The notes beneath the pieces were generated by a model. The model was not told the origin of the DNA. It did not search any database and saw only the letters and a list, made by a program, of their open reading frames with translations. From Sedimenticola thiotaurini (GTDB lineage: Bacteria > Pseudomonadota > Gammaproteobacteria > Chromatiales > Chromatiaceae), in contig VMRY01000003.1 in assembly GCA_007713595.1 (NCBI GenBank), positions 1-64,000 of the forward strand: DNA of 64,000 bases, written 5' to 3'. Made by a program: the position numbers and the translations under genes. Numbering within the stretch: position 1 is the stretch's first letter; the number at the start of each line of letters is the position of its first letter. Positions 49,781 to 53,055 of this stretch are shown here, piece by piece.

Positions 49781-50773
49781 ATGATCCTTCAGCCGCAGGC
49801 ACCTCTGGCATTCACCCCCGGCGATCCGGCTGGCGTGGGACCAGACCTCTGCGTTCAGTTAGCACAGCAACAGCGCAGTTACCCGCTGGTCGCCGTCTGT
49901 GACCCCGAGATGCTCCTGGATCGAGCTGAATTACTGGGACTTCCTCTGCTCATTGAACCTCATCGGCCATCGATTCCCGCATCCCAAAAGGCGGGGTCAA
50001 TCACGGTCCTGGCGATCGATCTTCCAGAGAAAGCTGAACCGGGTAGACTGAACCAGGTCAACGCCCCTTATGTGCTTGAAACCCTGCGCAAAGCAACCCA
50101 GCACTGTCTGGATGGAGAGTTCAGCGCACTGGTTACAGGCCCCATCCATAAAGGCATAATCAATGATGCGGGCATAGCCTTTTCAGGGCATACCGAGTTT
50201 CTCGCCGAACTGACCCACAGCTACCCTGTAATGATGCTGGCCTGCCCCGGCCTTCGTGTTGCCCTGGCTACAACCCATTTGCCTTTAAGAGCTGTCAGTG
50301 ACGCCATCACACAGGCATCCCTTGAGCAGGTTATCCGCATACTGCACCACGACCTGATCCATCGATTTGCCATTCAAAATCCGCGCATCCTGGTCTGCGG
50401 CCTAAATCCGCATGCCGGTGAAGGCGGGCATCTGGGCATGGAAGAGATTGAGACAATCATTCCTACCCTGGAGCGATTAAGGAAAGAAGGATTACTGCTG
50501 GAAGGGCCGCTACCGGCCGACACCCTATTCACGCCGAACCATCTTAACCGAGCAGATGCGGTGCTGGCGATGTATCACGATCAAGGTTTACCTGTACTCA
50601 AACACCTGGGATTTGGTAGCGCAGTGAATATTACCTTGGGCCTGCCTATCATTCGCACATCGGTGGATCATGGTACTGCACTGGATCTGGCCGGGACAGG
50701 AAAAGCCCATAGAGGTAGTCTGCACAGCGCCATTGAAGCAGCTCACCAGTTGGTGCTGGCTTCTGCACACTGA
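49781..50773 (+). CDS. pdxA: 4-hydroxythreonine-4-phosphate dehydrogenase
   Basis: NAD-dependent step in pyridoxal phosphate synthesis. [13 protein letters not shown] is the N-terminal motif; the metal-binding His residues are in [26 protein letters not shown] and [16 protein letters not shown]. Length 330 is normal. It follows surA by 14 bases. In most gammaproteobacteria the next gene is rsmA (ksgA), then apaG and apaH; here a minus-strand terminator and gene follow instead. Confidence 0.97.
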
Positions 50774-50785
50774 ACCACCGCAGGC

Positions 50786-50810
50786 AAAAAAAAGCCCGGA
50801 CGAACCGGGC
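50786..50810 (-). terminator. Intrinsic terminator of the DsrC-like gene
   Basis: On the minus strand GCCCGG, loop TTCGT and CCGGGC are followed by eight T residues. It lies 94 bases after the stop of the DsrC-like gene and convergent to pdxA. Confidence 0.88.
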
Positions 50811-50903
50811 AAAGGGAGGTATAACTCATTGAAAGGGTGACCCCTTAAACTGAAATTGCCTTTCGGCACTCTGCGCGATCGTTATCGACAGAGAAACATC
50901 TTC

Positions 50904-51257
50904 TTAGCCCATATAGGCCTTGGCCTCTTCGCCCGGATTGGGCAAGCCAGCAATGCGCCAGACCTGGAGGCAGCCTCCAAACAGATCTTTTACATCCCTT
51001 TTTGAGAGCTCACTACTGCGACATATCCGACGCATGGGCGGTATGGCGCCAAGTCTGAGAAAACGGTCTCTAACAAAGTGGATGACCCGCCAGTGAGCCA
51101 TCTTCAGGGGAGCAATCCCCTCCAGCTCGGCCAAGGTCTCGGCCACTTGTTTATCCCAGGTCTCGGTGTTCAGCAGAAAACCATCTTCATCAAATACAAT
51201 GGCTGCCAACAGAGAACCACTACTTGCGGACTCGCTTACACTCTGCACTATGCTCAT
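50904..51257 (-). CDS. DsrC/TusE-family protein lacking both conserved C-terminal cysteines
   Basis: A 117-residue protein with the DsrC fold signature: FDEDGFLLNTETWDKQVAE, then HWRVIHFVRDRF and the C-terminal arm IAGLPNPGEE. DsrC carries sulfur on two Cys in that arm (motif ACxxAGLPKPTGCV); here the first is Trp (VWRIAGLP) and the last two-residue Cys-Val end is replaced by EEAKAYMG. The seven-to-eight-residue loop of true DsrC is also shortened. Such Cys-less paralogues are called RspA-type and may be regulatory. AGGA lies 9 bases before the chosen ATG (51257). It diverges from a CysB-type regulator. Confidence 0.85.
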   Translation of the reverse strand: MSIVQSVSESASSGSLLAAIVFDEDGFLLNTETWDKQVAETLAELEGIAPLKMAHWRVIHFVRDRFLRLGAIPPMRRICRSSELSKRDVKDLFGGCLQVWRIAGLPNPGEEAKAYMG

Positions 51258-51441
51258 TACAATGTTTCCTACAATGTAAGTCGTTCTGCCCAGGTTCAGC
51301 CTATTCTTCACCTGCCAAGAACTGATTACTTGCACAAAACTATAGCGCGGCGTGACAATACATCAAAATAACTTTTCCGTCTATAGAAATAGTTGATCGA
51401 TATAAGGCGAATAAGAATTATTATATATATTAGGCAGTAAT

Positions 51442-52416
51442 ATGAAACTACAACAACTCCGTTTTCTCCTGGCCGTCGCCCAGAACGACCTCAATATCAC
51501 CGCAGCAGCCGAGCGGCTTTTTACCTCACAGCCCGGTGTCAGCAAACAGATCCGCTTACTGGAGGAGGAGCTGGGCGTCACTATATTTGAGCGCACTGGC
51601 CGCCAACTCACAGGCATTACCGATGCCGGTAAGGCCATCATAAGCCGGGCGGACGCGGTTCTCAGAGAGGTCGATTCAATACGTGATGTCGCCAGTGAGT
51701 TCAGTGACCCGCGGGCGGGCAGCCTCTCTATTGCGACCACCCATACCCAGGCCCGCTATGTACTACCGCCGGTTATCAAGGCATTTCGCGCCCGTTATCC
51801 AGCTGTTGACCTGCAGATGCACCAAGGCAATCCGGAACAGATATCTGAGATGGCCGCAGGCGGGGCTGTTGACTTTGCTATCGCTACTGAAGCAACTGCA
51901 GATTTTGGCAACCTCATCATGATGCCCTGCTACCACTGGAATCGGACCATTATTACCCCCTGTGATCATCCACTGCGCGACGTCCAGCCACTGACACTGG
52001 AAGCAGTGGCTGAATACCCAATCGTCACCTATGTGTTTGGATTTACCGGTCGCTCCCAACTGGATAAATCATTCCGGCGTCTGGATCTGGAGCCCAATGT
52101 GGTATTTACCGCAACCGATGCCGATGTAATCAAAACCTATGTTCGTCTCGGTGTTGGCATTGGTATTCTAGCGAAAATGGCCTACAACCCGGAACAGGAT
52201 AAAGACCTCTGCTCACTGGATGCAACACACCTGTTCCCACCAAGCACAACCCGTCTTGGATTCAGGCCTGGCCTCTTCTTGCGCTCCTACCATTATGATT
52301 TTATTAGCCTGTTTGCCTCTCACCTCACGAGGGAGGTGGTCGAGAGTGCAGTTGAGGCCGCCTCAGAACAAGAACGCAACGCCTTGTTCAGCGATCTTAA
52401 ACTGCAAGAGTACTAA
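51442..52416 (+). CDS. cysB: CysB-type LysR-family regulator
   Basis: A 324-residue LysR regulator, the same length as E. coli CysB, which activates sulfate assimilation with N-acetylserine as inducer. The winged helix is at about 1-60 (FTSQPGVSKQIRLLEEELG, with MKLQQLRFLLAVA as the first helix). The effector domain has the CysB signature SIATTHTQARYVLPPVI and GVGIGILAKMAYNPEQD. An AT-rich 184-bp gap separates it from the DsrC-like gene and probably contains both promoters. CysB autoregulates in E. coli; binding here is inferred. Cbl is the close alternative. Confidence 0.9.
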   Translation: MKLQQLRFLLAVAQNDLNITAAAERLFTSQPGVSKQIRLLEEELGVTIFERTGRQLTGITDAGKAIISRADAVLREVDSIRDVASEFSDPRAGSLSIATTHTQARYVLPPVIKAFRARYPAVDLQMHQGNPEQISEMAAGGAVDFAIATEATADFGNLIMMPCYHWNRTIITPCDHPLRDVQPLTLEAVAEYPIVTYVFGFTGRSQLDKSFRRLDLEPNVVFTATDADVIKTYVRLGVGIGILAKMAYNPEQDKDLCSLDATHLFPPSTTRLGFRPGLFLRSYHYDFISLFASHLTREVVESAVEAASEQERNALFSDLKLQEY

Positions 52417-52662: not shown

Positions 52663-53055
52663 ATGAGCAAAAAGAATTATTGGCATGGCTACCTTGAGGC
52701 TGGCACAAAAAGCACACCTGTATTGCGCGACCTGACGATTGAAACGGGTAATGAGTCAACTATTTATCTCTACTCTCTGAAACGCAACAAGGTTCTGGAG
52801 TTTCAGATAAACATCGTGGAACCAAAGCTGCGTGAGTTGGGGGAGGATGAGTCAGATGTCATAAGCGAGCTGACCGCTGGTTACAAAAAGGCAAAAAAAG
52901 AGTTCACGCCCCGCGGTTCATTACGCATGAAGCAGGTCGAACTCACCCCACAGCCCAGTGACACAGCAGTAACGACGGCTGAAACGGACCTGGATGATCT
53001 GGATGATATCGACATAGATGATGATGATATCGATATCGATATGGATGACGATTAA
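52663..53055 (+). CDS. Unknown protein with Asp-rich C-terminal tail
   Basis: I do not recognise a family. The 130 residues begin MSKKNYWHGYLEAGTKSTPV, with a globular-looking part to about residue 85 (VLEFQINIVEPKLREL). The last 25 or so residues are an acidic run with repeated DDLDD, IDIDDDD and DIDMDDD units. There is no signal peptide or membrane segment. GGGGAAAG precedes the ATG by a few bases, and a strong terminator follows, so it is a single-gene unit. The acidic tail could bind a metal or a basic partner. Confidence 0.75.
   Translation: MSKKNYWHGYLEAGTKSTPVLRDLTIETGNESTIYLYSLKRNKVLEFQINIVEPKLRELGEDESDVISELTAGYKKAKKEFTPRGSLRMKQVELTPQPSDTAVTTAETDLDDLDDIDIDDDDIDIDMDDD

Follow-up and report, generated by a model that had tools for sequence, protein, structure and literature searches.

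Dissimilatory sulfur metabolism relies on DsrC as its central sulfur carrier, and DsrC paralogues are usually annotated as sulfur relay proteins. What role could then be played by a DsrC homologue that lacks both canonical arm cysteines and is encoded divergently from a CysB-type regulator? The question is raised by a locus in a 64,000-nucleotide stretch of Sedimenticola thiotaurini DNA (contig VMRY01000003.1, positions 1 to 64,000, referred to as the window here), for which an earlier note had proposed a cysteine-less, sulfur status-sensing partner of CysB. The locus comprises the following features.

50904 to 51257, minus strand: DsrC-family gene of a subfamily with its own cysteine pair, 117 amino acids (translation, profile matches, orthologue alignment)
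50794 to 50810, minus strand: terminator-like hairpin with a T run, 3' of the DsrC-like gene (one of two such matches, 0.6 expected)
51258 to 51441, between the genes: divergent intergenic region, 184 bp
51442 to 52416, plus strand: cysB, LysR-type regulator, sole CysB-level gene in the genome (profile and genome search)

The start codon of the DsrC-like gene (ATG, 51257) has an AGGA 5' of it, and the flank opposite cysB carries pdxA, surA, and lptD, names that come from reading the sequence and not from a family search.

Family assignment, fold, and cysteine pattern

Both the score test and the fold test place the protein in the DsrC/TusE superfamily, in agreement with its initial designation as a DsrC-family protein. 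It scores 72.5 bits against the Pfam DsrC model (PF04358, cutoff 24.9) and 56.7 bits against TIGR03342, narrowly above the cutoff of 53.5, and it fails the TusE equivalog PRK11508 (NF008562) with 38.8 bits against a cutoff of 191. An AlphaFold2 model built from 72 sequences (pLDDT 80.9) retrieved eight DsrC-family chains at the top of a structure search (Z 10.6 to 15.2). DsrAB-bound DsrC shared the first rank, 2v4j_C (Z 15.2; 99 residues at an rmsd of 1.7) being level with three other chains of this kind. Among the matches listed, the closest named relatives are from Sedimenticola, with 84 to 85% identity. We collected the subfamily by a protein search, a pattern scan of contigs, and a profile search of 370 genomes, each of which lists the best matches and not every match. 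The contig scan required a tryptophan at position 100, so that members with a cysteine there could not turn up in it; the protein and profile searches had no such requirement.

The arm and the cysteines of the protein are located as follows.

50907 to 50960, minus strand: C-terminal arm, residues 100 to 117 (WRIAGLPNPGEEAKAYMG), with Trp100 in place of the first canonical cysteine and without the penultimate cysteine
51021 to 51023, minus strand: codon of Cys79, on the first helix of the helix-turn-helix; cysteine in 80 of 83 aligned members
50970 to 50972, minus strand: codon of Cys96, the second conserved cysteine; cysteine in 67 of 83 members
50979 to 51035, minus strand: helix-turn-helix, residues 75 to 93 (helices 75 to 82 and 86 to 93), from the AlphaFold2 model

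The translation contains both VWRIAGLP and the terminal EEAKAYMG, and the earlier note was right that the two sulfur-carrying arm cysteines are gone: Trp100 aligns to the first of them (Cys100 of Allochromatium vinosum), and the penultimate one is absent. Of the two cysteines that define DsrC proper, the protein thus has neither the sulfur-binding penultimate one nor the first arm one. Trp100 is invariant in all 72 rows of a second alignment, A2 (the window protein plus 71 of the 80 listed loci), in which the contig scan pattern itself required the tryptophan, and the penultimate cysteine occurs in none of the aligned members listed, so that homologues retaining the arm pair were not found at this locus. 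As reported for A. vinosum DsrC, sulfur is bound by the penultimate Cys111 only, and Cys100 is dispensable for binding (PMC3397948). Since the equivalent of Cys111 is missing here, the known mode of sulfur carriage is excluded, as had been proposed.

The description of the protein as cysteine-less, by contrast, does not hold. Among 83 aligned members, 67 have Cys79 together with Cys96 and 13 have Cys79 together with a cysteine near position 88; two have the cysteine near position 88 alone and one has neither, which leaves 3 of 83 rows without one or both conserved cysteines. For alignment A1, we picked 20 orthologues among the best matches listed, omitting near-duplicates (L007, L010, and L011) and three loci with the second cysteine at the other place (L029, L030, and L031); all 20 have Cys79 and Cys96. 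On the tree, the relocation of this second cysteine is a single event. Cys96 lies four residues, or about one helical turn, ahead of the canonical place of the first arm cysteine. Given this conserved pair of its own, the subfamily is not simply a cysteine-less paralogue.

The remainder of the protein is DsrC-like. All 72 rows of A2 share the same arm hinge residues (A103, G104, L105, P106, P108, G109, and E111), and 13 columns are invariant over the 72 subfamily sequences. In the model, Cys79 is placed on the first helix of the helix-turn-helix and position 88 on the second, while Cys96 starts the next helix. After the DsrC chains, the next structure matches were DNA-binding domains of the TetR type (residues ∼50 to 107), at Z 5 to 6.4, below the value of 8 under which the search tool calls matches common. 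DsrC structures align over this region as well; as the helix-turn-helix is common to the DsrC fold at large, it is compatible with DNA binding and nothing more, and it does not single out the subfamily. In seven members scanned against Pfam DNA-binding families at an E value of ≤10, no match was obtained except RWP-RK in one member, at 0.13. As judged from the model, the body, helix-turn-helix, and arm hinge of DsrC are all retained in the subfamily, which carries a different cysteine pair on or beside the helix-turn-helix. One subfamily member (L064, 5980 to 6636) is fused in one open frame to a pterin-4a-carbinolamine dehydratase domain (PF01329, 93.8 bits).

Distribution of the subfamily and company of dsrA

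The subfamily tracks the Dsr pathway. In the profile search of 370 genomes of the class, 39 genomes had a best match of at least 99 bits, followed by a gap to matches of at most 68.5 bits, which were counted as canonical DsrC. All but one of these 39 matches reach profile position 111 or 112 of 112, the exception (G092) ending at 102. A further genome with dsrA (G320) was left out of the carriers, as its partial match covers profile positions 66 to 111, and it may also contain a member. Among the matches listed, dsrA is present in 39 of 39 class carriers versus 124 of 370 class genomes overall (hypergeometric P of 3e-21, without correction for kinship; the set comprises 23 family codes). A set of 170 genomes of the order, 154 of which have dsrA, yielded 89 subfamily matches at an E value of ≤1e-18, 87 of them in genomes with dsrA (Fisher P of 0.001); the two carriers without a dsrA match are G018 and G108, and three of the 89 matches are doubtful (G127, G128, and G034, with 79 to 83 bits and ending at profile position 102 to 104). 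Physical proximity to dsrA was read from the sequence in a lone case, G043, where the two genes are 4 kb apart. Another locus, L050, had been considered as a neighbor of dsrL and was dropped, since its upstream genes looked from the sequence like a cluster for a pyruvate oxidoreductase and the only Pfam matches were generic flavoprotein and ferredoxin domains. The source genome itself has two dsrA genes above the cutoff (C161, 20241 to 21443, and C64, 11806 to 13011), and two dsrA matches were found in six of the seven genomes of the genus examined.

The carriers listed include named isolates of Thiocapsa, Thiocystis, and Sedimenticola. No member was found in the A. vinosum-like genome G141, where the best match reached 58.6 bits; we infer this identity from its five DsrC homologues, whose positions agree with the A. 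vinosum locus numbers. The absence of a member there may explain why the subfamily escaped study. It is also the reason that we rejected, as evidence for the subfamily, the expression of Alvin_1508 of A. vinosum, which is reported to be 7- to 8-fold down together with dsr genes on pyrite (PMC11267869). Among phage sequences, 24 pattern matches yielded no confirmed subfamily member, and in a plasmid collection the search returned 12 records with at best 36% identity, the annotated ones among the matches listed (eight) being tusE. With its clear score gap, the company of dsrA, and its own cysteine pair, the subfamily offers a well-delimited candidate for a so far unrecognized regulator, or accessory factor, acting in the oxidative Dsr pathway.

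Linkage to cysB and the shared intergenic region

The neighbor of the DsrC-like gene across the 184-bp gap is, as had been read from the sequence, a CysB: it scores 507 bits against the equivalog NF009326 (cutoff 436), and the second-best LysR-type protein in a genome search with it reached only 104.5 bits versus 715.8. The question of whether the pair is conserved beyond the source genome can be answered positively, as a CysB-family LysR gene lies divergent from the DsrC-like gene in 17 of 80 listed loci (14 of 80 with a cruder gene caller). On the other flank, pdxA is found in nine of the 17 linked loci and is absent in eight, among which are short contigs (L052, L056, and L057). Outside the 80 loci, a CysB homologue is divergent in G043 and in G013 (40% identity), and in G121 it lies in tandem, ∼1 kb off; G094 and L049 are one and the same gene. 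One tandem arrangement of a DsrC-like and a CysB-family gene was found at L153.

The partner itself varies. It passes the CysB cutoff at L051, L062, and L048 and misses it at L052, L055, L061, L153, and L157, where it is a relative from the CysB family, and in 6 of the 17 linked loci it is only 38 to 46% identical to the window CysB. No CysB-family gene was seen at the other 63 of the 80 listed loci, five of which have less than 700 bases upstream (L041, L070, L092, L111, and L116). At L054, pdxA is retained but cysB is not, and G017, the genome to which this locus probably belongs, gave no CysB homologue at an E value of ≤1e-70. Among 22 carriers that we chose, this threshold leaves 9 without a CysB homologue and 13 with one, which in 7 cases is unlinked to the DsrC-like gene. 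On the tree, three changes of linkage suffice for 20 linked of 78 rows; the tree counts exclude L028 and the outgroup, the linkage count excludes in addition the five loci with short upstream sequence, and the tree keeps 115 of 297 columns, few for the number of rows, with many forks unresolved.

Outside the CysB-linked lineage, no shared neighbor was seen beyond close relatives, as exemplified by a topoisomerase-like gene in Thiocapsa and its kin. At L071, L074, L100, and L101, a regulator of the Lrp/AsnC type (identified by Pfam at L074 and read from the sequence at the other three) is divergent from the DsrC-like gene at a distance of 92 to 158 bp, occupying the place held by CysB in Sedimenticola. 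Two downstream neighbors have a link to sulfur, namely, a Sulf_transp-domain protein (PF04143) at L097 (6361 to 7953) and a rhodanese-bearing pyridine nucleotide-disulfide reductase at L065 (6446 to 9184). In the window, positions 52663 to 53055 encode a protein of 130 amino acids with no Pfam or NCBIfam match at an E value of ≤0.001, which is found 3' of cysB in 5 of the 80 listed loci, all from Sedimenticola.

Two features were identified within the intergenic region.

51339 to 51401, between the genes: conserved block, 63 bp, predicted to be the likely operator and promoter
51339 to 51366, minus strand: sigma70-like match (TTGATG, 16 bp, TATAGT; 9 of 12 consensus positions) reading into the DsrC-like gene

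In seven Sedimenticola genomes, 57 of the 63 columns of the block are invariant versus 29 of the other 126 intergenic columns. Third codon positions of the relatives are 44 to 47% identical to the window in cysB (five of six relatives measured, L042 being excluded) and 44 to 70% identical in the DsrC-like gene. That the block has remained nearly invariant while third codon positions diverged shows that it is under strong constraint. Four sigma70-like matches of this quality occur in 50770 to 51500, with 0.7 expected in shuffled sequences. A matrix built from five segments of the lineage scored at least 32 bits in ten loci, including L048 and L041, neither of which was used in training; the next locus reached 21.5. 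At up to three mismatches, the block pattern has a single occurrence in the genome. A CysB-box consensus for comparison was not found in the open-licence literature, and together with the single copy this makes no case for a regulon-wide CysB site. The intergenic region contains no inverted repeats of at least 10 bases, and its single-strand folding was the same as that of shuffles (z of -0.04). Length and place of the block fit a LysR-type operator serving both genes, to which CysB would bind.

The proposed link to CysB thus stands in part. The pair and the 63-bp block are conserved in one lineage; a general role of the protein in modulating CysB is unlikely, given the 9 of 22 carriers without a strong CysB homologue and the 63 of 80 loci without a CysB-family gene. 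Instead of being an accessory of CysB, the protein belongs to a separate subfamily associated with the Dsr pathway.

Possible roles of the subfamily

Our preferred reading, to which we give a probability of about 0.45, is that the protein is a noncarrier DsrC paralogue specific to the Dsr pathway, which regulates by means of its own cysteine pair and is controlled by CysB in the Sedimenticola-like lineage. This reading starts from what the data directly support, i.e., the subfamily, its cysteine pattern, the company of dsrA, the linkage to CysB, and the conserved block. The control region common with cysB in one lineage hints at a regulatory role for the subfamily. The protein would use its cysteine pair to sense the state of thiols, persulfide, or sulfite and, acting by DsrC-like docking or through its helix-turn-helix, could tune the oxidative Dsr pathway at DsrAB, at DsrEFH, or on DNA. 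In the Sedimenticola-like lineage, CysB at the shared divergent region would set the transcription of the gene and thereby tie the protein to the assimilatory sulfur status of the cell. Redox activity of the pair, the docking partner, CysB binding, and the regulatory output are the parts that we infer.

A bolder version, which we regard as rather unlikely, takes the protein for a transcription regulator with a DsrC fold, in which the helix-turn-helix of a former carrier binds DNA and the cysteine pair, when persulfidated or oxidized, reports dissimilatory sulfur flux, cross-wired with CysB in one lineage. If true, an intermediate of the pathway itself would report this flux. It is doubtful, though conceivable, that the protein instead still relays sulfur or electrons in the Dsr pathway, with Cys79 and Cys96 (or the cysteine near position 88) carrying persulfide or cycling as a disulfide. 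Such a relay would account for the conservation of the pair, with its second cysteine at one of two places, and is consistent with the conserved arm hinge and with dsrA in all 39 class carriers listed. The mobile tip of the DsrC arm reaches the DsrAB haem, however, and the new cysteines sit on the body and not on this tip. The reported binding of sulfur at the penultimate cysteine of A. vinosum DsrC only, with Cys100 dispensable (PMC3397948), also speaks against a relay.

The conserved body and hinge, the company of dsrA, and the DsrAB-bound chain as joint nearest fold (2v4j_C, Z 15.2) would suit a docking competitor that binds DsrAB, DsrEFH, or DsrK and thereby blocks or paces DsrC, its cysteines being redox inactive. 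We consider this improbable, as it leaves two conserved cysteines unexplained and as A. vinosum DsrC without Cys111 is reported to bind DsrEFH much more weakly (PMC3397948). A modulator of CysB itself, the role favored by the divergent pair in one lineage and by the tandem case at L153, is very unlikely in view of the carriers in which a CysB homologue is missing (9 of 22) or unlinked (7 of 13) and of the 63 of 80 listed loci where no CysB-family gene was seen. Least credible of all is an ordinary TusE-like protein for tRNA thiolation or a decaying duplicate: membership in TIGR03342, narrowly above the cutoff, is set against the score of 38.8 versus 191 bits for PRK11508, the missing penultimate cysteine, the company of dsrA, and 13 invariant columns over 72 sequences.

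The preferred reading, of a regulatory noncarrier, can be placed among known systems. With DsrC (A. vinosum Alvin_1256 and Desulfovibrio vulgaris 2v4j chain C), the protein has in common the fold, the AGLPxP arm hinge, and the occurrence in genomes with dsrA; it differs in lacking the arm cysteines, with Trp100 for the first and its own Cys79 and Cys96, and in a longer arm with a terminal helix predicted at residues 110 to 116. TusE (NF008562, PRK11508) belongs with it to the TIGR03342 superfamily, and the protein differs from TusE by falling far below the cutoff, by the missing penultimate cysteine, and by the company of dsrA. As for the regulator, the window CysB qualifies for NF009326, whereas the low-identity partners tested (L052, L055, and L061) fall under the curated cutoffs. 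DsrC-like proteins in which one cysteine motif or both are missing have also been described from phages (PMC4164917), and one phage data set is reported to contain 5 of 141 with neither (PMC8190135); an incomplete arm motif is what they have in common with the window protein, and none was confirmed in this subfamily. In the open-licence literature, outside of which most specialist DsrC papers fall, we found no mention of a DsrC whose cysteines have moved or of one paired with CysB.

The earlier note had grouped the protein with cysteine-less paralogues of the RspA type, for which it cited a proposed regulatory role. This name is said to go back to Venceslau and colleagues (2014) and reportedly denotes DsrC paralogues without the arm cysteines. 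In having neither arm cysteine the window protein resembles this type, but its subfamily has two conserved cysteines elsewhere and ends in GEEAxxYM, and it is three other paralogues that are wholly free of cysteine. The source genome encodes five DsrC homologues, of which L002 (C44), L003 (C23), and L004 (C64, 15286 to 15630) contain no cysteine at all; two of the three end in KTKGEH and one in KRKGGY. The KRKGGY paralogue lies on the opposite strand ∼2.3 kb from dsrA (C64, 11806 to 13011) and fits the RspA idea better than the DsrC-like gene of the window. In G030 and G256, DsrC-family matches adjoin dsrA in a similar way, as judged by position alone.
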